Shown in pieces: positions 13,589 through 37,398 of a stretch of DNA of 38,022 bases. This DNA comes from Bacillota bacterium (GTDB taxonomy: Bacteria > Sysuimicrobiota > Sysuimicrobiia > Sysuimicrobiales > Segetimicrobiaceae): the NCBI GenBank assembly GCA_021324295.1, contig JAJPJJ010000092.1:1-38022 (forward strand), given 5' to 3'. Position 1 is the first letter of the stretch, and the number at the start of each line of letters is the position of its first letter. The notes under the pieces were generated by a model. It ran no database searches, was not told the DNA's origin, and worked only from the letters and a program-made list of their open reading frames with translations. Position numbers and translations under genes: made by a program.

Positions 13589-13622
13589 GGCTGGCCGCGC
13601 GGGACGTCCCGCGCGGCCAGCC
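13589..13622 (+). repeat. 34-bp perfect palindrome in the 5' leader
   Basis: GGCTGGCCGCGCGGGAC (13589-13605) is followed at once by its exact reverse complement (13606-13622), with no spacer. It lies between the -10 box and the fluoride aptamer. It could be an operator for a dimeric regulator or a very stable 5' RNA hairpin. Confidence 0.85.
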
Positions 13623-13628
13623 GGATGG

Positions 13629-13682
13629 TGGCGATGAGGCTCGCCATATAACCGCGCCGGAGCGCGCTGATAGCCTCTGCAG
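13629..13682 (+). ncRNA. Fluoride riboswitch (crcB motif) upstream of Ehr-type complex operon
   Basis: The stem-loop TGGCG-ATGAGGCT-CGCCA (13629-13646) is followed by ATATAACCGCGCC, a short GGAG loop, GCGCGCTGATAGCCTCTGC. Order, spacing and the invariant AACC, CTGAT and loop GATGAGGC elements match the fluoride aptamer; it is nearly base-for-base the known Thermotoga petrophila form. Loop GAGGC can pair with GCCTC (13673-13677) as the pseudoknot. The GCCTC strand is also the 5' arm of the terminator that follows, so fluoride binding should prevent termination and switch the operon on. Confidence 0.93.
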
Positions 13683-13708
13683 TGGTCGCTGCAGAGGCTT
13701 TTTGTTTT
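13673..13708 (+). terminator. Riboswitch-controlled intrinsic terminator
   Basis: A perfect 10-bp stem, GCCTCTGCAG (13673-13682) with CTGCAGAGGC (13689-13698), has a 6-base loop and is followed by TTTTTGTTTT. Its 5' arm overlaps the aptamer pseudoknot strand, so the two structures are mutually exclusive. Confidence 0.93.
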
Positions 13709-16975: not shown

Positions 16976-18583
16976 ATGGTGTGTGCGGTGTCCGAGCAGG
17001 ACGGGCTCCGGGATCTGGGCGCGGCCTGCCGCGAGCGCTGGCCGCAGCGCGTCCACGCGGCCTATGAGGCGGCGCGGCGCACGTGGCGCCTGGAGTGCCG
17101 CGCCGATGCGCTCGTGGATCTTGCCTCCTGGCTCGTGGCCGAGCGCGGAGTGAGCTTTGCGGGCCTGGTTGTCGAAGAGGCGCCCGCGGAGTGGGTGCTG
17201 CGCTACCTCTTCTACGGGGACCGCGACACCGGTTGGGTCGAGATCGTCGCGCGGTGCCGCAAGCCGGCCCGCGCGATGCCGAGCATCAGCGCGCGTGTCC
17301 ACGCGGCGGACTGGCACGAGCGGGAGGCCGAGGACCTCTTCGGCCTGGTCTTCGAAGGGCACCCGCGCCTCGGGGACTTCGTCCTCCACAACGACGTCTG
17401 GCCCGAGGATGTCGGGGTGATGCGCGCGGACTACGACCCCGCGGTCCGCCGGCCTCGCCCCGAGCCGGACCCCGCCTGGCAGCCGGTGCGGCTCGTGGAG
17501 GCCCCGGGAGCGTTCTGGATGCCCGTGGGCCCGATCTACTCGGGGGTCACCGAGTCGGCCCTCTTTCTCCTGGAGACCGTGGGGGAGGACGTCATCCGCG
17601 CGTTCCCCCGGCTGTTCTACAAGTACCGCGGCATCGAGAAGATCGCCGAGAGGAGATCGGTCGACCAGGTGTTGCTCCTCGCCGAGCGGTGCGCCGCCAC
17701 CTCGGCGTTCGCCCACTCGCTCGCGTTCTGCCAGGCGGTGGAGGCGATCGCCGGGGTGGAGGTGCCGGCCCGCGCGCGCGCGCTGCGCATCGTGCTCGCG
17801 GAGCTCGAGCGCCTGCGCCACCATGTGGGGGCGATCGAGGAGATCTGCGAGTCGACGGCGCTCGCCGTCGCGGCCAGCCAGGCGTCGATCCTCGAGGAGG
17901 ATCTGCTCCGGCTCTCCGGCAGCCTCACGGGTCACCGCTATCTCTTCGGCCTCAACGTGCCCGGCGGGCTGACGCACGACCTCGCCCAGGGCGCCGTCCG
18001 CGCGGCGGCGGATGGCGCGGCGGCCGTCGTGCCGGCGCTGCGCCGCCTCCGCGAGATGCTCGGCGTGTCGAGCAGCTTCGTCGACCGGTTGGAAGGCATC
18101 GGCACGATCTCCCGCGCCGACGCGCTGGCCCACGGTCTCGTCGGGCCGGTCGCCCGCGCCTCGGGCGTGCGGCGGGATCTCCGGGTTGCGCAGCCGTACT
18201 CGGGGTACGAGTCGCTCGACGTGCTCGTCCCCGCTGAAGAGGACGGCGATGGGTATGCCCGGCTCCGGGTGCTCTTTGCCGAGGCCGAGGAGTCCGCGCG
18301 CATCCTGGCGCAACAGGCGGCGGCGCTGCCCGCGGGACCGGTCCGGGCGCCCGCCTTCCCGGTGGCGGCCGGCGCCGCGCTCGGGTGGGCCGAGGCGCCC
18401 CGCGGCGCGGCGTTCCACTGGGTCCGCATCGGCGCAGACGGCCTCGTCGCCCGGTACCGGCTCGTCACGCCGTCGTTCACCAACTGGCACGGGTTCCACC
18501 TCGCGGCCGAGAACTTTGCCTTTCAGGACTTCCCGATCATCCTGGCCAGCTTCGGGCTCTCGGCCGGCGAGGGCGACCGGTAG
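16976..18583 (+). CDS. HyfG/HycE-like NuoCD fusion lacking [NiFe] cysteines
   Basis: 535 residues: NuoC-like domain (about 30-160; ISARVHAADWHEREAEDLFGLVFEGHPRL) fused to a NuoD/hydrogenase large-subunit-like domain (about 165-535; GPIYSGVTESALFLLETVGEDVIRAFPRLFYKYRGIEK). In real [NiFe] enzymes four Cys in two CxxC motifs bind the metal. Here the first site reads ERCAATSAFAHS (residues 237-248), with no CxxC. The C-terminal site reads ASFGLSAGEGDR, where DPCxxC is expected. It therefore cannot hold a NiFe centre and is not a hydrogenase. This matches energy-converting hydrogenase-related (Ehr) complexes, whose substrate is unknown. GAGAGGTGA precedes the ATG. Confidence 0.9.
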   Translation: MVCAVSEQDGLRDLGAACRERWPQRVHAAYEAARRTWRLECRADALVDLASWLVAERGVSFAGLVVEEAPAEWVLRYLFYGDRDTGWVEIVARCRKPARAMPSISARVHAADWHEREAEDLFGLVFEGHPRLGDFVLHNDVWPEDVGVMRADYDPAVRRPRPEPDPAWQPVRLVEAPGAFWMPVGPIYSGVTESALFLLETVGEDVIRAFPRLFYKYRGIEKIAERRSVDQVLLLAERCAATSAFAHSLAFCQAVEAIAGVEVPARARALRIVLAELERLRHHVGAIEEICESTALAVAASQASILEEDLLRLSGSLTGHRYLFGLNVPGGLTHDLAQGAVRAAADGAAAVVPALRRLREMLGVSSSFVDRLEGIGTISRADALAHGLVGPVARASGVRRDLRVAQPYSGYESLDVLVPAEEDGDGYARLRVLFAEAEESARILAQQAAALPAGPVRAPAFPVAAGAALGWAEAPRGAAFHWVRIGADGLVARYRLVTPSFTNWHGFHLAAENFAFQDFPIILASFGLSAGEGDR

Positions 18584-24681: not shown

Positions 24682-25060
24682 TCACGACGCTCCCGGCGTG
24701 GCCCGCTCGGCCTGCGGGGCCGCGGCGCCCGGCGCGACGGCGCTCCGCCGCTTCACGGCGACGGCAACCGCGATGCCCACGAGCGCGGCCGCGACGATGG
24801 CCCCGCGCGCCCAGGCGGAGAGCGGCAGGACGATGGGCGGGCGATGAGGATCGCGACGAAGGGTCACCATCTTGACAGTGGGGTTGAGGGCGGGGGCCGC
24901 CGTATCCTTCAAGGGATCGCCCACCGTGTCGCCGGTCACGCTCGCCTTGTGCGGTCCGTGCCCGTGCCGCCGAGGAGCCCGTCCTCGATCGTCTTCGTGG
25001 CGTTGTCCACGATCGGCGTGCCCGTGTCGGGACGCAGCACCTGCGCGCCCGGCGGCCCCG
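24682..25060 (-). pseudogene. Decayed C-terminus of membrane-bound pyrophosphatase (HppA)
   Basis: On the minus strand, [28 protein letters not shown] (codons from 24951 downwards) is the conserved C-terminal signature of proton/sodium-pumping pyrophosphatases. The preceding conserved segment [23 protein letters not shown] lies in a different frame (about 24958-25023), so there is a frameshift of about one base between them. A second break follows VTL before the last hydrophobic helix ([21 protein letters not shown]). The N-terminal 600 or so residues are missing. An in-frame ATG (25155, [11 protein letters not shown]...) overlaps the stop of the DUF4129 gene. That suggests the ancestral gene was the last cistron of the riboswitch-controlled MoxR operon. 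Confidence 0.8.
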
Positions 25061-25147: not shown

Positions 25148-26716
25148 TCAGGCATCGGATCTCCCTCCTCCACGTGCGCCGTGCGGCGCTCCATCGTCAG
25201 GCCGGGCCGTCGCTGCGCCGCGGCCGTCCCGCCCTGCGCCACCGGCCCCTTCGTGCTCCGGGCGCGGCGCCTCGCGACACCGCGCAAGCGCCTCCCGGAC
25301 GGCCGCGAGGTCTGCGTCGGAGGGCGCCTCGAGCCCGTAGCGGACGCGGCCGTAGACGGCGGTCAGCGCCCCCACGCCGCGAGCGGTCTCGGGCCAGGTG
25401 GCCCCGAGCACGCCCGCGAACTCGGACGGGGTCTGGTGGGGCGCCCGGGGATGCCCGCGCGCGGCCGCAAGCCCCAGCAGCTCCGCGTACGCGCGCCGCA
25501 CCGCGGCCGCAGTCCCGCTCCCGAAATCGAGAGCCGAGGGTGCCTCGTCGGCCGGACGCGGACGCCGGCGCAGCCACGCGCCCAGGGCGGCCCGCAGGTC
25601 CGCCCACGACCACACGGACTCGTGCACCTCCTCCCCGGCCGGAGATGTGCCGACCCGGTCGTACCGGAAGACCACGCGCGCCAGCCACAGCAGGATCAGG
25701 GCGGCGACGAGCGCGGCGATCCCCCAGCGCAACGCGGTCGCAGCAGCGGGCGGCAGACCGGTCGGAGCCCCGTGGGGCGCGGCCCGCGGCCACGCCGGCG
25801 GCACAAACGGGTGGAGCGGCTGCGCGGCGCCGGCATGCAGCAGGCGGCGTACCAGCCAGATGATGCCGGCGACCACGATGCCGAGGGGCGCGGCGACGAC
25901 GTAGAGCAGATCCCACAGCAGCGGGTCGAGGAGCCGGCCGACCGCCCGCAGCACCGCGGCCGGATCGAGCCGCAGGAGGGCCCCGGCGAGCGCCGCGATC
26001 CCCAGGATCGCGACCACGGCACCTCCGACCAGCGCGTACCAGCCGCGCCCGATCGCCACGGCCTGGGGGGACGCCTGGGTGCGCTGCCGGATGCTGCGCA
26101 GCCGCGCCACGGGCAGCGCGACGAGGCCGGCGGCGAAGAACGCGATGAGCGAGGGCAGGGCGCGCATTGCGGTCGCGGCGACCGCGGGCTCCGCGTGCGC
26201 GAGCGCCGCTCCGGCGGCGAACACGCCGAGCGCGCCGAGCCCGAGGTAGAACATCGCCTCGAGATCGTAGTACTCGAGCGCCGTCCGACCGACCACGATG
26301 CCGCGTCTCCAGACCAGGCCGGCGAGCAGGAACGCCGGGATCTCCGGCCGGACGCTGCGCAGCGCCGCGTCCGCGGCGTTCCACAACGATCCGTGCGTCC
26401 TCCACCATGGGTCCCCACCGTACTGCGCGGCGACGGCCGCTCCGGCGGCGAGCGCGCCGGAGGTCGCGAGCAGCCACCTGGCCCGGGCCAGTGGCCCGCC
26501 GCGCGCGAGCAGCGCGCGGGCGAGCGTCTGCGCGCCCGCGAGGAGGAGGAAGACGGCGAGCGGAGCGAGCAGGGGGGCGCCGGGATGAGCCCACGCCGAT
26601 CCGAGGAGGAGCGTGTACGGTGCGATCCAGGCGGCGTCCATCGCGGATGCGAGCAGCGGGAGCCCCCACGCGCTCGGGTCGTGGGGAGGCCTAGAGCGCG
26701 ACGCGTTCGAGATCAC
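25148..26716 (-). CDS. Multi-spanning membrane protein with C-terminal DUF4129-like domain
   Basis: 522 residues. About eight to nine hydrophobic helices fill residues 18-350, then a cytosolic or periplasmic tail has the DUF4129 look ([59 protein letters not shown]). It is often the partner of MoxR and DUF58 proteins, where it may accompany a transglutaminase-like domain; no transglutaminase triad is seen here. The GTG start at 26716 overlaps DUF58 by 26 bases; an ATG at 26641 ([12 protein letters not shown]) is an equally possible start. It is the third gene of the operon led by the minus-strand fluoride riboswitch. Confidence 0.75.
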
Positions 26717-27920
26717 GCCACGCCTCCTCGCTACGCACGTGAAAGACCGGCATCCCGTCGGCGGCGACCGCGGGCGCCTGCGTGCCGACGAGCACGAGCC
26801 CGGCGGAGCGCCCCTCGCGCCGCACCGCCACGAGCGCGCCGAGCAGGTCCGGGTCGGCGATCGGGGTGATCGCGAGCACCGTGGTGCCCCAGGGCAGCGC
26901 GGGCGCTTCCGCGGCGAGGAGGTCGGCGAGCGGCAGGGTGGGGACCGGCATGATCGTGGCGAGCGCCTCCAGGATCGCCTGGAGCTGCTCGGGGTGCTCG
27001 CTCGGCGGCAGCGCGATCGTGGACGCGCCCTCGCCGCGGAAGCGATGTCCGTTCACGTAGAGGCCCACCGGGTGCTTCTGCTCCGCAGCCCACGCCGCGA
27101 TCGAGGTCGCGACGATCACGGATAGCTCGACGAGGAGCGGATCGTAACCGGCCCACCAGGCGTGGCCGGCGAGCGTCTGCATGTCCAGGAACAGCGCGAC
27201 GCGCGCGTGCGTCGTCGGCTCGAGCAGCTTCACCTGCAAGCTGCCCAGCCGGGCCGACGCCTTCCAGTGGATGCGACGGAGGGGATCGCCCGCCTGGTAC
27301 CCGCGGACCCCGGCCACGTACGCCGGGTCCTCCCACAGCGTGTGGGGGGTGATGAGATCGCCGAACGGTCCGTGCACGGGCAGCCCGAGCCGCTCGAGGG
27401 GGACGATCCTGGGATAGACGATCAAGCTATCCACCGCGGGCTCTTCCCGACGCTGGATCGACATCCCGAAGAGGTCGCCGGCGCGGAGCGTGGCCGGTCC
27501 GAACTCGTGGAGGCCGCGCTGCGCGCAGCGGATCCGGTACCGCCGGCGGATGCGCTCGTACCAGCGCGGCGAGCACAGGTGGACGAGGGTCCGCCGCCGG
27601 GGCTTGTACGACGACGCGAGGCGGGCGCCCGGGTAGACCAGGCCCTCCGGCACCTCGTCCTCGATCTCCAGCCAGGGCAGCGGGAGCGGCTTGCGGTTCG
27701 TGACCTCGAGCACGAGGTCGATCTCCTCGTCGAAGAACGCGCGGCGCTGGCTGAGCATGCGGCGGTACGTCACGCCGCGGAAGCAGTGCCGCTGCCACAC
27801 CCAGGAGGCGAGCGCGACGAGGAGGCTCGCCGCCGCGAACAGGAACAACAGGGCCTCGCGCAGGAAGGCGCCGAGCGCGAGCAGCAGGAACAAGACGAGC
27901 AGCCACCCCTCCGATGTCAC
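26691..27920 (-). CDS. DUF58 domain protein (MoxR-associated)
   Basis: 409 residues. Two N-terminal membrane helices (LLVLFLLLALGAFLREALLFLFAAASLLVALASWVW) are followed by a beta-rich region (VLEVTNRKPLPLPWLEIEDEVPEG) and the DUF58 signature GDPLRRIHWKASARLGSLQVKLLEPTTHARVALFLDM, a degenerate von Willebrand-A-like fold. DUF58 proteins are near-universal partners of MoxR AAA+ ATPases and are thought to assist assembly or activation of other proteins. The ATG overlaps the MoxR stop (ATGA), so the two are coupled. Confidence 0.9.
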   Translation of the reverse strand: MTSEGWLLVLFLLLALGAFLREALLFLFAAASLLVALASWVWQRHCFRGVTYRRMLSQRRAFFDEEIDLVLEVTNRKPLPLPWLEIEDEVPEGLVYPGARLASSYKPRRRTLVHLCSPRWYERIRRRYRIRCAQRGLHEFGPATLRAGDLFGMSIQRREEPAVDSLIVYPRIVPLERLGLPVHGPFGDLITPHTLWEDPAYVAGVRGYQAGDPLRRIHWKASARLGSLQVKLLEPTTHARVALFLDMQTLAGHAWWAGYDPLLVELSVIVATSIAAWAAEQKHPVGLYVNGHRFRGEGASTIALPPSEHPEQLQAILEALATIMPVPTLPLADLLAAEAPALPWGTTVLAITPIADPDLLGALVAVRREGRSAGLVLVGTQAPAVAADGMPVFHVRSEEAWRDLERVAL

Positions 27921-28894
27921 CGTCGTCCTCCCTCCGGGGGGAGCGGCGTCTCCGCCGGCACCGGCACGCCGGCCAGCACCTCGGCCAGGACGTCCTGGAG
28001 CGCGGTCCCGCGAAGACGCGTCTGCCCGGTCGGGAGCAGGCGGTGCCCGAGCACGGCGGGCGCGAGCTCCTTGACGTCGTCGGGCAGCACAAACACCCGG
28101 CCGCGCACCGCGGCCAGCGCCTGCGCCGCGCGCCGGAGCGCGAGCGCCGCGCGGGGGCTCGCGCCGAGGGCCAGCGCCGGATGCTTCCGCGTCGCCTGCA
28201 CGATCGCGACGAGGTAGTCCCGGACCGGCCCGGCCACGGTCACGCTGCGGATCGCGCGGGCCGCCGAGACGAGCGACGCCGGCTGGGTGACCGGGGTGAG
28301 GTCATCCAGCGGGTTCTCGCGCTCGAAACGGTCGAGGATCGCCCCTTCCTCCTCGGGCGTGGGATAGCCGAGGGCGATCCGCATCAGGAACCGGTCGAGC
28401 TGCGCTTCCGGCAGCGGAAACGTGCCCGCGAGCTCGATCGGGTTCTGCGTCGCGAGCACGAGGAACGGCCGGCCGAGCGGTCGCGTCTCGCCTTCCACCG
28501 TGACCTGCCGTTCCTCCATCGCCTCGAGGAGCGCGGACTGCGTGCGTGGGGTGGCGCGGTTGATCTCGTCCACGAGGAGGATCTGGCTGAAGATCGGCCC
28601 CGGGTGGAACTGGAAGGTCTGGGTCTGCGGGTTGTAGACGGAGACCCCCAGGACGTCCGCGGGCAGGAGGTCCGGCGTGCACTGGACACGGCGGAAGGTG
28701 CCCCCGATGCTGCGGGCCACCGCCTTGGCGAGCATCGTCTTCCCGATCCCCGGGACATCCTCGAGCAGCACGTGCCCCTCGCTGAGCAAGGCCACCAGCG
28801 CCAGCTCGACGACCTGGTCCTTGCCGACGATGACGCGGCGGACCTGCTGCTCGACGGCCTGCGCGAGCCGGCCGACCTCTGCGAGCGCGTCCAT
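27917..28894 (-). CDS. MoxR-family AAA+ ATPase
   Basis: 325 residues starting MDALAEVGRLAQAVEQQVRRVIVGKDQVVE, with GGAGGT 4 bases upstream. Walker A is EDVPGIGKTMLAKAVA, Walker B is ILLVDEINRATPRTQSALLEAMEE, sensor 1 is VLATQNPIE, and the C-terminal lid follows. MoxR proteins act as chaperones that insert cofactors or metals or activate partner complexes, together with DUF58/VWA proteins. It is the first gene after the fluoride riboswitch and terminator on the minus strand, 15 bases from the terminator T-run. P-loop ATPases are classical targets of metal-fluoride phosphate analogues, which may be why it is switched on by fluoride; that is inference. Confidence 0.95.
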   Translation of the reverse strand: MDALAEVGRLAQAVEQQVRRVIVGKDQVVELALVALLSEGHVLLEDVPGIGKTMLAKAVARSIGGTFRRVQCTPDLLPADVLGVSVYNPQTQTFQFHPGPIFSQILLVDEINRATPRTQSALLEAMEERQVTVEGETRPLGRPFLVLATQNPIELAGTFPLPEAQLDRFLMRIALGYPTPEEEGAILDRFERENPLDDLTPVTQPASLVSAARAIRSVTVAGPVRDYLVAIVQATRKHPALALGASPRAALALRRAAQALAAVRGRVFVLPDDVKELAPAVLGHRLLPTGQTRLRGTALQDVLAEVLAGVPVPAETPLPPEGGRR

Positions 28895-28908: not shown

Positions 28909-28948
28909 AAATCAAAAAGCTTCTACAGTCGCTGTGGCTGTAGAAGCT
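28909..28948 (-). terminator. Riboswitch-controlled intrinsic terminator (minus strand)
   Basis: On the minus strand AGCTTCTACAG (28948-28938), a 9-base loop, CTGTAGAAGCT (28928-28918) and a run of T (28918-28914). The 11-bp stem is perfect. Its 5' arm overlaps the aptamer pseudoknot strand GCTTC. Confidence 0.92.
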
Positions 28949-28999
28949 ATCGGCCGCTCGGTAGCCCCGCGGGCGGCGGTTCAGGCGAGCTTCATCGCC
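28938..28999 (-). ncRNA. Fluoride riboswitch (crcB motif) upstream of the MoxR-DUF58 operon
   Basis: Minus strand: GGCGATGAAGCTCGCC (28999-28984), then TGAACCGCC, a longer GC-rich P3 arm, GGCCGATAGCTTCTAC. Compared with the copy at 13.63 kb, loop GAGGC has become GAAGC, and the distant pairing strand has changed in step from GCCTC to GCTTC. This compensatory change supports the pseudoknot and hence a functional aptamer. The terminator hairpin competes for the GCTTC strand, so fluoride should allow transcription of moxR. Confidence 0.92.
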
Positions 29000-29523: not shown

Positions 29524-30990
29524 TCAGCGCAGCGATCCTGAGAACCGGAGCAGCGCCCGCCGCCACGCCGTCTGCTCGGCGCCCTTGGCCTCGGGGCGGA
29601 ACTGCCAGGCGGTCTTGCGCATCGCCTCCGCGAGCTCCCACTCCAAGCTCGCGAGCCTGGCGTCCTCCACTTCGACGAGCAGCCGGCGGGTCTCCGGCTT
29701 CGGATCCCACGCAAGCGCCTGGGCGAGGTGCGCGATGCACAGGCCGTATCCGTCCGCGAAGGCCGCGCGGTGGCGGCGGTCCGCGAGCAGGGCAAGGAGC
29801 AGCGCGAGCGCCCGGTCGCGTGCCACGGCCAGGCGCTCGCAGACCGGGCACCGGAGCCCGCGCGCGAGCACGTCGCGAGCCGCCTCGACGCGCCGGCGCG
29901 GCTCCCGCAGGATACGGTGGAGTCGTTCGGTGAGGCGCTCACGCTCGGGGCGCGGCCGGGGCAGGAGCGCCCCCCGCGCCATATCCACCTCGACGAGCGC
30001 GGCTCCGAGCGCACGCCGTGCGACCGCGGCCGCGAGGGGCGGCCTGCCGTGGCGCACGAGCGGCCAGACGTGCTCGGCGCACGTGGGCAGGAGATCGGCG
30101 AGCTGCGGTTCTCCGCGCGAGGAGGCAGCGTCGAGCCACGCCGTCCATTCCAGCCACGCGCGACGCACCTCCAGGCAGAGCGGGCAGCAGTCCCGCCGCA
30201 GGCTCTCCGCGAGCTCGGCCACCGGGTCCCGCGCCCGCTCGCCGCTCCCGGCCTCGTCAGGAGAGGGATAGGGATCGAGCTCCGTGTCGTGGCCGACCGC
30301 GAGGTGCAGCGCGGGCAGGACCCTCTCGAGGAGATCCCCGCGGCTGCCTCCCGGGCGCCCAGCGGGCAACTCCTCGAGCGCCGCGGTCATCGCCGTGCCG
30401 TGCGCCGCAAGCAGGCGCCCGAACGCGGCATCGGAGACGCGCGGCGCGAGCGCCCGCAGGTGCGGGACGCAGAGCATCCCGGGCCGCCCGTAGCGCTCCT
30501 CGAATAGCGCGGGATCCTCGAGGATCCCGGCCAGCCAGGAGACGTTCCGGTCGGCGCCGCCCGCCCGGCTGTGGCACGCCGGGCAGGGGCCGGAGCGGGC
30601 GACGGTCGGCCCGCGGGGCGGCCGCCGGCCGCCCTGCCCGGCGGCGTCGGCGGCGAGCGCGAGGCGGACCCGGCGCACGAGCACGTGGTGGACGTAGGCG
30701 AGCTGCGCGGCCCCGGTCTGGGCGGAGGAGAGGACCTCCGCGTGCCCGAGGCAGAAGCCGAGGGAGCGGTGCAGTGCGTCGAGCGTGAACGACGCGTAGT
30801 AGCTCTCGTTGAAGAACCAGAAGAAGTACGAGCTGTCGACGCGCCGGCTCTCGCAGCAGATCGGACACCCGGCCTCCGCCAGCGCGTGCAGGAACCAGAG
30901 CTCCGGCTCGCCCCGCGGGCGCGCGGCGCTGCGCCGCCTCGGTCCTCGGAGGTCCGGCAGCCGCGCCCGGGCGGACCCGAGCAGCGTCAC
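29524..30990 (-). CDS. Protein of four tandem CPxC...CxxH modules (DUF6062-like)
   Basis: 488 residues from a GTG overlapping the upstream stop (GTGA). Four modules of about 45-55 residues each begin CPxC and end with CxxH: AGCPICCESRR...GFCLGHAEVL; GPCPACHSRAG...MLCVPHLRAL; DCCPLCLEVRR...PTCAEHVWPL; LRCPVCERLAV...GLCIAHLAQAL. Each provides three Cys and one His, the make-up of a treble-clef-like zinc or other metal site. I recall similar modules in DUF6062 proteins of unknown function. No signal peptide or membrane helix. It is coupled to a smaller protein with the same kind of motif and to two MutS-like ATPases, so a shared complex or pathway is likely. Function unknown. Confidence 0.7.
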   Translation of the reverse strand: MTLLGSARARLPDLRGPRRRSAARPRGEPELWFLHALAEAGCPICCESRRVDSSYFFWFFNESYYASFTLDALHRSLGFCLGHAEVLSSAQTGAAQLAYVHHVLVRRVRLALAADAAGQGGRRPPRGPTVARSGPCPACHSRAGGADRNVSWLAGILEDPALFEERYGRPGMLCVPHLRALAPRVSDAAFGRLLAAHGTAMTAALEELPAGRPGGSRGDLLERVLPALHLAVGHDTELDPYPSPDEAGSGERARDPVAELAESLRRDCCPLCLEVRRAWLEWTAWLDAASSRGEPQLADLLPTCAEHVWPLVRHGRPPLAAAVARRALGAALVEVDMARGALLPRPRPERERLTERLHRILREPRRRVEAARDVLARGLRCPVCERLAVARDRALALLLALLADRRHRAAFADGYGLCIAHLAQALAWDPKPETRRLLVEVEDARLASLEWELAEAMRKTAWQFRPEAKGAEQTAWRRALLRFSGSLR

Positions 30991-31697
30991 GGCCCGTGCT
31001 GGCCCCTGCCGCAGAGCACGAGCCAGGGTGCCCAGCCGCTGTACCAGCCGGATGCGCTCACGAGCGCCGCGCGATCCTCCGGCGTGTCGGTGCCCCGGTG
31101 GTCCCAGCGGAACGCGCGCGCGTAGCGCCGCAGGTGCCCGGTGATGGCCTCGACGAGCACGCGCTGCGCGGGCAGCTCCGCGCCGGCGCCGCCGTGGAGG
31201 AGGTCCTCGCGCAGGTGCACGCGGCAGCGCGGGGTGCTCCCGCTGCCCGCGCAGCGCCCGCACACCGCCGCGCGCCAGAACTGCTCGGTCGCCCCGGCAA
31301 AGGCACGGATCTGGCTCAGGTCGCGTCCCTGCCCGACGACGTCCGGGGGCGCGTACCGGTCGGCCGTCCGGGTGAGCCCGAGCCCGCACACGAGACACAG
31401 CCCCCCCTCGCGGAGCCGGCCGGCGATCCGGACCGCGCCGAGCGGCCCGTGGGACGCAAACGCCGCGCACGCGCGCTCCATCAGCTCCTCGTAGACGATC
31501 GCGGGCCCGTGCAGGTAACCGTGCCGGAAGGCGGCCTCGGCCGCGATCCACCCGAAGCTGTGGCGCGCGCACAGGCCCCAGGCGCGGCGCAGCGACGCGC
31601 GCGTCTCCGGGATCATGATGCTGCCCTGGATGAAGTGCCAGAGAAAGTGGATCTCGCCCGCCGAGAGCTCCAGCTCGCACCCGGCGGGAGCCGCCAT
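30987..31697 (-). CDS. Cysteine-rich protein with CxxH and CxxC motifs, partner of the four-module protein
   Basis: 236 residues; the ATG shares one base with the upstream TGA (TGATG). An earlier in-frame GTG at 31712 would overlap more. It contains the same half-module as its neighbour (ETRASLRRAWGLCARHSFGWIAAEAAF, ending CxxH) and two CxxC knuckles (GLCLVCGLG, VCGRCAGSG) at about residues 100 and 145. There is no CPxC before the first CxxH, so the first module is degenerate (AGCELELSAGEIHFLW). No known catalytic motif. It probably binds metal. The context suggests it works with the adjacent repeat protein and the MutS-like pair. Confidence 0.65.
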   Translation of the reverse strand: MAAPAGCELELSAGEIHFLWHFIQGSIMIPETRASLRRAWGLCARHSFGWIAAEAAFRHGYLHGPAIVYEELMERACAAFASHGPLGAVRIAGRLREGGLCLVCGLGLTRTADRYAPPDVVGQGRDLSQIRAFAGATEQFWRAAVCGRCAGSGSTPRCRVHLREDLLHGGAGAELPAQRVLVEAITGHLRRYARAFRWDHRGTDTPEDRAALVSASGWYSGWAPWLVLCGRGQHGP

Positions 31698-33217
31698 CAC
31701 CGTGGCGCCCACCCCGCGGCCCTGGCCTCCGCATCCGTGCCCGGGCCAAAGATCCTTCTGTAGAGGTCTTCGCCGTAGGTCGTTTGCAACGGCTCGCCCT
31801 CGATGAGCCTGAACGTTCGCCGTCCGTCGGGTTGCCTTTCGGCCCGCAGGAAGATGGCGTTCGCCAGCCTCCTCGCAAAATCGTAGAGGTGCGTCACGAA
31901 GAAGACCTTGATGCGGCGGTCCACCAAGGCCCGTGTGATCTGCCTCGCGATCTCCGAGCCCTCCCTCTCGTTCGTCGCCGCAAACGATTCATTGAATAGC
32001 ACGAGGGAGTGGGGAGCGATGTGGTCCACGATCTCGCTCATCCGGCTGAGCTCCTCGTCGAACTTCCCGCTCTGCATGGCAGGGTCTTCCTCGCGTTTGT
32101 AGTGCGTGTAGATGCCGGTACAGAGGTTGGCGCAGAAGGACTCCGCCGGGACAAACATGCCGCACTGCATCATCAATTGGGCCAGCCCAATGCTCCGCAG
32201 GAAGGTCGACTTGCCGCCCTGGTTGGCCCCCGTGATGATCACCACGTCTCGATCGTCCGCGTTGACGTCGTTCCCCACGGCCCGGTGGTCCAGGTTGAGG
32301 CTCAGGCAGACGTCGTATAGCCCCCTACAGGAGTGCCTGCGCCGCTCGGGGGCCTCGGGCACGGGGAAGCACGTCGGCTCGCCCTTTGCCGCGAGCCGCC
32401 TGTGCAGGTTCAGGCAGCCGACGTAGAAGGCCAGCTCGACCCGCAGCATCGTGAAAAAGCCGAGGATGTGATCGGTGGATTGGCCGAGCGCGTTGGCCAC
32501 CAGGTTGGTTCCCTTGTCTCGCAGCTCCGCGAGGGCCCTCGCGCCCGCTTCGTCGCGGGGATGGATGTGCACGGTGTAGACGGGTGGCCTTTGCGCGAGC
32601 AGCCGCTGCAGCCAGCTCTGCGTCTCCTCGTGCGGCTTGCGAAGGACGTAATCGATCCCCTTATTGCCTTGTCCCAATCCGGCGCTCACCAAGGCCCCGT
32701 CGTGGAATTTCAGGCGTCGGAGGTGGTCGTGGATCCGGGCGAAATACTCGTCGCTGAGCTCCTGTTGGAGCATCGCGAAGAATCTCGTAAATCCCTCCGA
32801 GCGGAATGCGCTAGCGTGCTCGTCGGCGATGCTCCGGAGCTTCCTGAGCGCACCGACAAACATCTGCAGGACGCTCACCGACCTCTGGAGGACCGCCCCG
32901 GGTGTCCTCATGAACAGTCCCCAGTAGTCCTTCCGCTCTCGCTCGATGGACTCCGTCGCGAGATCGTAGATCCGCCGCACGACGGGCTCGTTGTTCAGCG
33001 CATCTCGAAGGACGTCTTGCCGGTATCGGACCGCGTCCGGATCGGCGAGACCCGAGAGGACGGCTCTCCCAGCGACGTCGGCGAGGTAGCGGTCGCCGGC
33101 CGCCATCGCGTCGAACAGCGTGGTCAATTCCAGGTCCTGGACGAGCGCTGCTTCGTTCCACGGCAGTGGCCGCCCGAGGTCGAAATCCCGATCGCGGTAC
33201 ATGAGAAACGCCTTCAT
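31697..33217 (-). CDS. MutS-core-like ATPase, second of pair
   Basis: 506 residues; the ATG overlaps the stop of the first ATPase (ATGA). The C-terminal ATPase has MutS domain-V features: Walker A VIITGANQGGKSTFLRSIGLAQ, the following MQCGMFVPAESF, and Walker B-like HSLVLFNESFAATNEREGSEIARQI, then VFFVTHLYDFA. MutS normally has DE in Walker B; this has NE. The N-terminal 270 residues are helical and resemble only the clamp/lever part; the mismatch-binding FxE motif and connector of MutS are absent. It is therefore not a mismatch-repair MutS. The partner gene has the same NE change, suggesting an asymmetric heterodimer. Base composition is less GC-rich than flanking genes. Confidence 0.85.
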   Translation of the reverse strand: MKAFLMYRDRDFDLGRPLPWNEAALVQDLELTTLFDAMAAGDRYLADVAGRAVLSGLADPDAVRYRQDVLRDALNNEPVVRRIYDLATESIERERKDYWGLFMRTPGAVLQRSVSVLQMFVGALRKLRSIADEHASAFRSEGFTRFFAMLQQELSDEYFARIHDHLRRLKFHDGALVSAGLGQGNKGIDYVLRKPHEETQSWLQRLLAQRPPVYTVHIHPRDEAGARALAELRDKGTNLVANALGQSTDHILGFFTMLRVELAFYVGCLNLHRRLAAKGEPTCFPVPEAPERRRHSCRGLYDVCLSLNLDHRAVGNDVNADDRDVVIITGANQGGKSTFLRSIGLAQLMMQCGMFVPAESFCANLCTGIYTHYKREEDPAMQSGKFDEELSRMSEIVDHIAPHSLVLFNESFAATNEREGSEIARQITRALVDRRIKVFFVTHLYDFARRLANAIFLRAERQPDGRRTFRLIEGEPLQTTYGEDLYRRIFGPGTDAEARAAGWAPR

Positions 33218-34785
33218 GATGGGATGCGCTCCTTCAGGGACTCGTAGGTGAGCCGGTGCTTCTCCGCGATCGATAGGGCATACGCGAGCCCGTCGGCCGG
33301 CCGTCTGAGGATCTTGTAGGTTCGCAGCGCGGGGTTCTCGGGGGAGACCGTGCTGACCATGCTGACCGTCTTCTCGCTGAGGGTCGAGAGCTCGTCGATG
33401 AACGTCACGCAGACGCCGAGCGCGTCCAGGGCCATGATCTTGTCCATGATCTTCCGGCTGAGAAACACCGCGTCCTGGAGCGTGGTCGACGTGAAGATCT
33501 CGTTCATGATGATGATGCTCTCCGATGTCGCCTGATCCAGGATCTCGTGGATCCTCAACAGGTCGTCCTCGAGCTTGCCGCGGAGCGTGGTGATGTCCTC
33601 CTCTCGTTCGAAGTGCGTGAAGAGCCTGTCGAACAGAAAGGTGTGCGCCTCCCTGCCCGCGACGGGGCAGCCCAGGGCAGCCAGATAGTGCAGTTGTCCG
33701 AAGGTGCGGGCGAACGTCGTCTTGCCGCCCTGGTTGGGCCCGGAGACGACGAGGACGCGCTCGGCGTCGTCGAGGTAGAAGTCGTTGCACACGATCGACG
33801 CGCCCTCCGCGGTCAGCTTCTGGGCCAGGGCGAAATCGTACGCGTCGTAGCTCCGGACCCGCTTGACCTTGGACACCCGCGGGTAGCAGATCTCGAGCCC
33901 CGCTCGCGTGAACCTTTCCACGTAGTCCAGGTACGCGATGTAGAATTGGACCTCGCGGTCGAACGCACGGATCACGGCGTCCTGATAGTCGACGTTCTCC
34001 TCGACGAAACGGTCGAGGGCGAGGAAGGCATCCGGGTAGAGCAGGGCCACGCGGTCGAGCACCTGCGCTTCGACGTGGTTCATGTCCGGGCCGGTGGGGT
34101 ATGTCACCCTGTAGTCTTTCGCGGCGCCTTGCTTGAATTTCTCGAATGTCTGCTCCACGTCGATGCTGTAATCGGCCTCGCCCTCGTATCTGCGGACCTT
34201 GATGTTGTCGTCCCCGATCAGGAGGCAGTATTTGATCGCGGACAGCGCCGCTGTGATCCTCTTCGTCTCCCTCACAAGCGAGGCGAAGCGGTCGGACGCG
34301 ACGTACCCCCTGAGGTAGTTACGGAAGGCCAGGAGGCCCCGTGCCTTGAGGTCTGCGTGATCGAGGTCGTCGGCAAGACGGGCGACGGCCTCGCAGTAGA
34401 TGCCCACCGCATCCAGGAACCAGCGCTCCTTCTGGTATTTGTAGTAGAGCTTGTCCGCCTGGGCCAGATGGTCGCGCATGGCCCGCATTCGCTGCGCGAA
34501 CGCTCGTATCTGCGCCATCGCCGTGCCGTCTTCGAGGTCGTGCATGACCTCGTGGCGGTACTCTATCGCGCTGGTGGTGGTCAACGGGGCGTAGAAGAAC
34601 GGCTTCAAGCGGTACTCGTCCTTGCCGGCGGTGATGGCACCGACGATCTGGTCGAGGTTGAGATCGGCGAAGAAGGCGGGCTCCTCAAGCCGGTCGTCTT
34701 CCGGCCGGTCTTCGGGCCGCTCGAAGAGGACGCTGGGGAGGGCCGTGCCTCTTTCGGCCCCGATCGTCGGACGGACGCGATTCAT
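33214..34785 (-). CDS. MutS-core-like ATPase, first of pair
   Basis: 523 residues starting MNRVRPTIGAERGTALPSVLF. The N-terminal helical region (to about residue 350) includes FFADLNLDQIVGAITAGKDEYRLKPFFYAPLTT. The ATPase core has Walker A VLVVSGPNQGGKTTFARTFGQLH (MutS consensus GPNMGGKS/T), LGCPVAGREA, Walker B-like ESIIIMNEIFTSTTLQDAVFLS (NE instead of DE) and VCVTFIDELS. No mismatch-recognition domain. Four-base ATGA overlaps with the genes on both sides show a tightly coupled operon. A promoter and a fluoride-aptamer-like element lie about 300-500 bases upstream. Function unknown; MutS-like genes are reported associates of crcB-motif RNAs. Confidence 0.85.
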   Translation of the reverse strand: MNRVRPTIGAERGTALPSVLFERPEDRPEDDRLEEPAFFADLNLDQIVGAITAGKDEYRLKPFFYAPLTTTSAIEYRHEVMHDLEDGTAMAQIRAFAQRMRAMRDHLAQADKLYYKYQKERWFLDAVGIYCEAVARLADDLDHADLKARGLLAFRNYLRGYVASDRFASLVRETKRITAALSAIKYCLLIGDDNIKVRRYEGEADYSIDVEQTFEKFKQGAAKDYRVTYPTGPDMNHVEAQVLDRVALLYPDAFLALDRFVEENVDYQDAVIRAFDREVQFYIAYLDYVERFTRAGLEICYPRVSKVKRVRSYDAYDFALAQKLTAEGASIVCNDFYLDDAERVLVVSGPNQGGKTTFARTFGQLHYLAALGCPVAGREAHTFLFDRLFTHFEREEDITTLRGKLEDDLLRIHEILDQATSESIIIMNEIFTSTTLQDAVFLSRKIMDKIMALDALGVCVTFIDELSTLSEKTVSMVSTVSPENPALRTYKILRRPADGLAYALSIAEKHRLTYESLKERIPS

Positions 34786-35426: not shown

Positions 35427-35436
35427 AGTTCCTGGC

Positions 35437-35486
35437 GGCGATGAGGCTCGCCGGATAACCGCGTCCCAGACGCTGATAGCCTCTAC
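35437..35486 (+). ncRNA. Fluoride riboswitch aptamer (crcB motif), orphaned
   Basis: GGCGATGAGGCTCGCC (35437-35452), GGATAACCGCGTC, a short loop, GACGCTGATAGCCTCTAC. All aptamer elements are present, with P3 arms GCGTC/GACGC and pseudoknot GAGGC/GCCTC. Unlike the copies at 13.63 and 28.99 kb, no terminator hairpin or T-run follows. About 185 bases downstream an insertion sequence begins, so the gene once controlled is probably gone or displaced. Confidence 0.88.
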
Positions 35487-35670
35487 GCTCATTCCGGGTT
35501 CGGGGGCGCTCGGGCGTCGGTACGGTCTGGGAGAGCGGTGGCATGAGCCGGCGGGCGTGGAAGTCACGTCCAGGGTTGTCCACTCCGCGATCCATCCCGC
35601 GGCACCTGCATCTATCCACCCGTGCCGGGAATCTTGTCCTAGCCCATGTTTGCAGGGGACAGACTCAGAG
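35487..35670 (+). other. Remnant leader between orphan riboswitch and insertion sequence
   Basis: GC-rich sequence. A 44-codon ORF starts at an ATG near 35544 after GGGAGAGCGG, but it encodes a basic peptide (MSRRAWKSRPGLSTPRS...) of no recognisable family that runs into the IS end. Nothing else is visible. It may be the 5' end of the gene lost from the riboswitch. Confidence 0.35.
35639..35653 (+). repeat. Outer inverted repeat, left copy
   Basis: CTAGCCCATGTTTGC. Its exact reverse complement occurs at 37578-37592. The pair flanks the insertion sequence at 17 bases on the left and 50 bases on the right. It may mark the ends of an older element or a larger composite unit. Confidence 0.7.
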
Positions 35671-37398
35671 GCCTTGATTTTCCTGGATTTCTGATTTTTG
35701 TTTTCCACAACACTCCCCGGGCGGTGTGAGCTGGTGGATGCCCACAGCCCGGAGGACCGCTTGGCCGTGGGGACCCGGCCGAGTCACCAGCCGGAGGTGC
35801 TGGCCCGCGACGTTGAGTTCCACCAAGCGGATCGGGCGGAGGGCCTCCAATGCCGTATCCAGGGCCATGGTGAGTCCGGCCCGGGTGAGCGCTTTGTGCA
35901 GGGCGCAGCCCAGCAGCAAGGCCAGGTGGACCACGAACAGGTGCGCCCGCACCCGGCGCTGCGTCTGATGATAGATCGGCCGCATCTCCATCATCCCCTT
36001 GAGCTCGCGGAAGGCGCGCTCCACCATCAGGAGTTCCTTGTAGCTGGCGACGGTCTGCACGGTGTCCAACGCCCGGTCGTTGGTTTGCAGGAGATACGTG
36101 CCTTCCACCCGCCGCGCGGCGCGGAGTTTCGCGCGGTCCAGGGTGAACCGCACCTGCCCGTCCGGCTCCAGCCGCCAGGTGAAGTAGCGATGGCCGCGGT
36201 ACGCGCGGAGGATGGCCCCGGCGCGGGCGCCGATCTTCTCGGGGGTCTTGAGCCGGCCAGCGGCCACTGCGGCTTGGAGCCTGCGCAGCGCATCGCGACA
36301 GCGCGCCATGTCCTGGCGCCGCATCGCGCGTTCGAAGCCCAACCGCTCGGGGCTGTGGACGACGATGTACCGGACGGGATCCTGGGGCAACTGCACCTCG
36401 ATCGCCCGCCCGCCATCAGGGAGCGGCTGTGCGGGACGCCGCCGGGCCGCCGCGAGGACCGCTTGGGCCGTGGGATTCCGCCGCCGCTGGATCCCGACCA
36501 CGTAACGATCCTCACCGGCCGCCAGCGCGTGCAGCGCCCGCTCGCTGACCATCCCGCGATCGCACACCCACACCACGCGCCGCACGGTAAACCGCCGCCG
36601 CACATTCGCCAGCACCGCGGTGACCGTCTGCCGATCGGCCCGGTTGCCGGCGAAGACGTAGGAGGCGATGGGCCACCCGCTCGCCATCACCACGCCCACC
36701 AAGACCTGCCGATTCCGCGGCCGGCCGTCGCGCGAATGCCCACAGCGCGCGACGCGCGTCGGGCCGGTGCCTTCGAAGTAGGTACTGGTCAGATCGTAGA
36801 AGACCACCTCCACCTGCAGGCCAAACAGATCGCGCAGTCTGAGGTACAGGTCCGTTTCGATGGCCTCTTTCGCGGCGATCAGGTGATCCAACGTGCGGTA
36901 CCACTGGCGCAATTGCCGATACGCCACGCGGACCCGGCCGTGCGCCTCCCACTGCGGGAGCACACGCTGGCCGGCCTGATCCGCGACCCAGCTTTCTTCC
37001 AGCCACCAGGCCAGCGCATGCTCGCTGCCGGGATGGAGCAAGCGATGCGCGGTGAGCAAAAAGGCCGTCTCCGCCACGTCCCACCCGTCCCGGCTCGGGC
37101 AGTGGCGGCGGACCACCTCCCCGATGCCCAGCTGCGCCCACAAGCGCCGCGCGACCAGGATGGGCCCATACGTCAGCCCGTGCTCGGCGGAGATCTCGCC
37201 GGCGTGCACGACGCGCTCGCGCGTGTACGGGCGCAGGAGGGTGAGGAGCTTGTCGAGATGCGGGGCCAGCAAATCGGCGCGGCCGATGGGGGAGACGACG
37301 CGTTGCTGCACCCGCCCGCCGACGCGGCGGCCTTCGACCAGATAGAGGTACTCATAGGTCTTCTCGCCTTGGCGGCGGGTGATCGTCCGCACAAACAT
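35665..37398 (-). CDS. IS1634-family transposase (IS4-like DDE)
   Basis: 577 residues starting MFVRTITRRQGEKTYEYLYLVEGRRVGGRVQQRVVSPIG, the typical IS1634 N-terminus. DDE catalytic residues are visible: Asp in VVFYDLTSTYFEGTGP, Asp in VVWVCDRGMVSERAL, and Glu in the YREK-like segment VERAFRELKGMMEMRPIYHQT. The frame is intact and full-length, so the element may still be active. The reading frame runs through the left terminal repeat (last residues EIQENQGL) and stops 6 bases outside the element. Confidence 0.93.
   Translation of the reverse strand: MFVRTITRRQGEKTYEYLYLVEGRRVGGRVQQRVVSPIGRADLLAPHLDKLLTLLRPYTRERVVHAGEISAEHGLTYGPILVARRLWAQLGIGEVVRRHCPSRDGWDVAETAFLLTAHRLLHPGSEHALAWWLEESWVADQAGQRVLPQWEAHGRVRVAYRQLRQWYRTLDHLIAAKEAIETDLYLRLRDLFGLQVEVVFYDLTSTYFEGTGPTRVARCGHSRDGRPRNRQVLVGVVMASGWPIASYVFAGNRADRQTVTAVLANVRRRFTVRRVVWVCDRGMVSERALHALAAGEDRYVVGIQRRRNPTAQAVLAAARRRPAQPLPDGGRAIEVQLPQDPVRYIVVHSPERLGFERAMRRQDMARCRDALRRLQAAVAAGRLKTPEKIGARAGAILRAYRGHRYFTWRLEPDGQVRFTLDRAKLRAARRVEGTYLLQTNDRALDTVQTVASYKELLMVERAFRELKGMMEMRPIYHQTQRRVRAHLFVVHLALLLGCALHKALTRAGLTMALDTALEALRPIRLVELNVAGQHLRLVTRPGPHGQAVLRAVGIHQLTPPGECCGKQKSEIQENQGL

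Follow-up and report, generated by a model that had tools for sequence, protein, structure and literature searches.

The minus strand of the 38,022-nucleotide stretch of DNA analyzed here (the window) carries a three-gene operon headed by a MoxR AAA+ ATPase (27917..28894), whose ATG is preceded by GGAGG and whose sequence holds both the AAA_3 domain (PF07726, E=9.2e-64) and the lid (AAA_lid_2; PF17863, E=4.3e-22) of MoxR ATPases. The second gene (26691..27920, minus strand) encodes a DUF58 protein and its start overlaps the MoxR stop, as read at the junction; the match is modest in score (PF01882, E=2.6e-9) and supplies the co-encoded VWA/DUF58-type putative partner that goes with MoxR membership. 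The MoxR-DUF58 annotation of the original prediction is upheld by these matches (in round figures E=9e-64 for PF07726 and E=3e-9 for PF01882). The third gene (25148..26716, minus strand; PF13559, E=5e-14) encodes a DUF4129-domain membrane protein and is kept in two genomes of the same family, G005 and G008. Between this gene and a metallophosphatase, at 24682-24965 (-), lies what is left of the C-terminal end of a membrane H+-pyrophosphatase (PF03030, profile 605-640), possibly a pseudogene.

Upstream of the operon, the minus strand reads in the order promoter, aptamer, terminator, GGAGG and the MoxR ATG at 28894. A search with RF01734, which had been proposed as a check on the predicted fluoride riboswitch, matched the full length of the covariance model at 29008-28934 (-) with 40.9 bits (E=4e-8), as compared to a gathering score of 34 bits (cmscan of the window against Rfam), and a clade-specific model, R1, scored the same aptamer at 60.3 bits. 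The predicted TTGACG-N18-TATAAT promoter, of the sigma-70 type, is present at 29050-29021 (-), and so is the perfect 11-bp intrinsic terminator (28918..28948, minus strand), in which arms at 28948-28938 and 28928-28918 enclose a 9-nt loop and are followed by a T-run (AGCTTCTACAG-9-CTGTAGAAGCT-TTTT), ~24 nt upstream of the MoxR ATG. The 5' arm of this terminator contains the pseudoknot 3' strand GCTTC, hence the expression platform overlaps the pseudoknot, as in members of RF01734. Scanning both strands of the 38 kb for a perfect 11-bp hairpin with a T-run gave exactly two matches, 13672 (+) and 28948 (-), both of which sit at fluoride riboswitches. The span first noted, 28909-28999, includes the terminator and the greater part of the aptamer, but the complete regulatory unit extends over 29050-28892 of the minus strand. 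Judged by its sequence, the RNA preceding MoxR is a canonical member of the fluoride riboswitch family.

The second of these riboswitches (13621..13686, plus strand) precedes a complex-I/Hyf-like operon and likewise carries an 11-bp terminator; it scores 33.9 bits with RF01734, 0.1 bit under the cut-off of 34, and 53.6 bits with R1. Where the 13.63-kb copy reads GATGAGGC..AGCCTCTGC, the MoxR-leader copy reads GATGAAGC..AGCTTCTAC, and reading both copies confirmed the change from GAGGC/GCCTC to GAAGC/GCTTC by which the pseudoknot is preserved. The terminator 3' arm alters in step with the pseudoknot (CTGCAGAGGCT versus CTGTAGAAGCT); on this reading of the two copies, the pseudoknot strands and the terminator 3' arm make up a three-way compensation. 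We aligned 29 aptamers, of which one comes from a distant genome and the other 28 from the window's genome and class; scored against the known family structure, 97.9% of the cells of this alignment pair, whereas sliding the partner columns as a control left only 40-55% of the cells paired. Two-sided changes were found in 7 of 13 pairs; in the pseudoknot 100% of the cells pair and three of the five pairs changed on both sides. None of 500 shuffles reached the observed covariation score, and since the structure came from the family and was not derived from the scored sequences, the usual bias of the shuffle and slide controls is small. P1, P3 and the pseudoknot all have compensatory support, and the positions of the aptamer core are invariant across the alignment. 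Loop sizes vary and the P3 loop of the MoxR-leader aptamer is long, as could be expected if the aptamer class had shifted to another ligand and the operon answered a signal other than fluoride. Yet given the invariant core, the fit of the RF01734 model, and the aptamers of the same group that stand directly before CrcB in the sister genomes G022 and G025, we find such a shift hardly credible.

In all, cmscan detected three fluoride riboswitches in the window, within 22 kb. The third aptamer (35428..35492, plus strand; RF01734, 38.5 bits) is without a terminator and has no clear gene behind it, matches the 13.6-kb copy at 85% identity over 53 nt, adjoins a DDE transposase gene (35665-37398) and looks like an orphaned duplicate. 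With three aptamers in 22 kb, one of them orphan-like, the MoxR-leader aptamer might itself be a decayed or coincidental leftover of riboswitch duplication in the contig, in which case MoxR expression would be independent of fluoride. This is very improbable, as the pseudoknot and the terminator are compensated, the promoter and the Shine-Dalgarno sequence are intact, and the switch and operon are kept together in G005 and G008, at ~78% MoxR identity to the window, as well as in two far lineages. Elsewhere in the window's genome (G000) there is a fourth fluoride riboswitch, at C109:6803, and a fifth, weaker aptamer on the same contig (L035; 4175-4249 (-), R1 34.9 bits), which stands at the start of a gene for a 659-aa AAA_16 ATPase. 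Matches to the L20 leader, istR, T-box and S10 in an Rfam E-value search were sub-threshold and were set aside as chance.

In both G005 and G008 the riboswitch is followed by MoxR, DUF58 and DUF4129 genes. Four neighbouring riboswitches of G008 precede one operon each, namely a MutS pair, an MFS protein, the MoxR-DUF58-DUF4129 operon and a Hyf-like operon, and in G005 one riboswitch precedes the MoxR unit and another the MutS pair. The three genomes G000, G005 and G008 each encode two further strong MoxR paralogs, distinct from the switch-linked MoxR, and no riboswitch was found at 15 MoxR paralog loci of the window's class.

A domain-wide survey, in which 386 genomes were sampled and 77 sites outside the window's class examined, extended the linkage to distant lineages. 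A second domain-wide sample was for the most part a repeat of this one. In G363 and G088, which belong to another lineage, MoxR-DUF58 lies directly behind the switch, and in G234 it comes second, after a DUF6062 gene. Following up the phylum of G234 in 103 genomes, we found switch-DUF6062-MoxR-DUF58 in nine genomes (G234 included) and switch-MoxR-DUF58 in one. The genome survey for MoxR operons behind crcB RNAs that the original prediction had called for thus returned the same arrangement in G005, G008, G363, G088 and ten genomes of a third phylum. The distant genomes number 12 in total, in nine of which DUF6062 comes first, and each of the 14 linked sites beyond the window has a terminator that overlaps the pseudoknot strand. 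Under the rough assumption of 3 MoxR genes per 3000 genes, with two genes considered at each site, 0.15 MoxR sites are expected among the 77 as compared to the three that were seen, or two when G363 and G088 are counted once (P about 5e-4 and 0.01, respectively). In a tree of 110 MoxR proteins, built by a quick method with SH-aLRT support only, the 15 switch-linked proteins call for three changes, each of them forced by well-supported branches; the tree as built requires that the pairing of switch and MoxR was acquired at least three times independently in bacteria. The pairing is not universal, since most of the sampled fluoride riboswitches stand before genes other than MoxR and the majority of MoxR loci are without a switch. 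Among named genomes, 80 MoxR loci were without a credible riboswitch, the best score being 15 bits, whereas the true distant linked sites score 30-51 bits with the same model and were detected in 12 of 12 cases. Taken across these genomes, the link between operon and riboswitch is no accident.

We propose that without fluoride the 3' strand of the aptamer, GCUUC, would pair as part of the 11-bp terminator stem, so that RNA polymerase would stop before the MoxR ribosome-binding site, whereas with Mg-fluoride bound the GAAGC/GCUUC pseudoknot would form, the terminator would be blocked and the MoxR-DUF58-DUF4129 operon transcribed. This transcription-ON logic is deduced from the overlap of terminator and pseudoknot and is the logic proposed for the fluoride riboswitch class (PMC2864571). 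We consider it highly probable that the canonical fluoride riboswitch turns on transcription of the operon, fluoride binding and induction being what we infer from the leader.

Enzymes that handle Mg and phosphate are poisoned by fluoride and it is therefore plausible that a MoxR motor serves in their rescue. CbbQ belongs to the MoxR class. The AAA+/VWA pair CbbQ-CbbO releases inhibitors from rubisco (PMC4660213), RavA-ViaA bind Nuo subunits and mature complex I (PMC3893208), and NorQ-NorD inserts iron (PMC9976466). By analogy, the MoxR ATPase and its DUF58 partner could act as a chaperone, remodelling fluoride-poisoned metal-dependent enzymes or membrane complexes so as to mature or reactivate them, which we regard as quite possible though short of probable. 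The binding of Nuo subunits by RavA-ViaA would also accord with MoxR-DUF58 being a cluster-specific assembly factor for the neighbouring complex-I/Hyf-like complex, whose operon has a fluoride riboswitch of its own (13.62 kb), and in the window and in G008 the MoxR and Hyf-like operons do share a cluster, each behind its own switch. We think this unlikely, because in the G234 phylum most genomes with a switch-linked MoxR carry just one riboswitch and lack an adjacent Hyf-like operon, and because the 17 kb examined in G005 contain the MoxR unit but no Hyf-like operon. Returning to rescue from fluoride damage, we advance as a tentative suggestion that MoxR-DUF58 and, in many cases, the zinc-finger-like DUF6062 form a recurring module of the fluoride stress response, one that at least three bacterial lineages independently placed under fluoride riboswitches and that would repair fluoride-poisoned metalloenzymes by ATP-driven remodelling.

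The window has its own DUF6062 gene, an open frame with two DUF6062 modules (29524..31878, minus strand; PF19538) whose true start is uncertain, and nine distant genomes have a gene of this family between the riboswitch and MoxR. DUF6062 proteins share invariant CPxC..CxxH and CxxC..LC motifs (the window frame and L207, L225, L184, L192, L173, L210 and L035) and are a frequent first gene behind fluoride riboswitches; a structure predicted for DUF6062 (pLDDT 78) had no meaningful match in the PDB, and a literature search turned up no publication. In the domain-wide sample many fluoride riboswitches are first followed by proteins of ~560-630 aa that resemble dynamin-type GTPases (L162, L172, L176, L180, L195, L197, L202, L206, L213 and L229), in some of which a GKSSLINALL motif can be seen by eye.

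Beyond the DUF6062 frame lies the pair of MutS-domain-V proteins (31697..34785, minus strand; Pfam), which in G005 and G008 stands behind a fluoride riboswitch of its own; in the window, neither an aptamer nor a remnant riboswitch was detected before the pair. By Pfam the two proteins have no MutS domain except the ATPase domain V, and the best NCBIfam match of one is KamC, a reactivase ATPase, at a score well below the cut-off. This resemblance hints at a function outside mismatch repair and points toward rescue or reactivation for these neighbours of MoxR as well. CxxC NiFe ligands are found neither in the NuoCD-like subunit of the 13.62-kb operon (16976-18583, plus strand) nor in 15 riboswitch-linked NuoCD-like homologues, several of which are truncated by the locus end; by the CxxC motifs this operon would fall outside the formate hydrogenlyases and NiFe hydrogenases. 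Because these motifs are missing, the large subunits of riboswitch-controlled 'formate hydrogenlyase' are probably complex-I-like (Ehr-type) and not NiFe hydrogenases. No CrcB was detected in G000, which is 96% complete, and its sole CLC (C62:10495) is by eye an ordinary chloride-type CLC; no known fluoride exporter is thus evident in this genome. In the absence of a detectable CrcB, resistance may therefore be carried by other members of the fluoride cluster.

The usual picture of fluoride resistance is one of export and a few overproduced enzymes. A switch placed on MoxR-DUF58 at least three independent times suggests that the fluoride response has a repair or maturation arm, and bacteria probably make MoxR-DUF58 as a recurring element of their defence against fluoride; MoxR-DUF58 systems that are otherwise orphan thereby gain a candidate inducer and a phenotype that can be tested. 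The original prediction knew of no description of direct fluoride control of MoxR, and this agrees with our literature search, which found no report of MoxR or DUF58 as a fluoride-riboswitch target in the publications covered, a single co-mention being unrelated. What is possibly new is the regulated operon and not the RNA: the aptamer core, P1 and P3, the pseudoknot, the terminator overlapping it and the ON logic are those of the fluoride (crcB) riboswitch RF01734 (Weinberg 2010, PMC2864571). The targets named for this class in the publications covered (PMC2864571 among them) are exporters, Na+/H+ antiporters, pyrophosphatase, HAD proteins, enolase, formate hydrogenlyase and mutS, whereas here a MoxR-DUF58-DUF4129 operon is regulated instead. 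The same fluoride gene cluster also holds, as neighbours, operons of the fluoride-linked MutS and formate-hydrogenlyase kinds, but these differ from the known ones in having MutS-like proteins with MutS domain V only and Hyf-like large subunits devoid of the NiFe-hydrogenase CxxC motifs. As in RavA-ViaA, NorQ-NorD and CbbQ-CbbO, a MoxR-type ATPase is encoded together with a putative partner; unlike in those systems, the partner is a DUF58 protein and not a characterised VWA protein, and control is by a fluoride switch.
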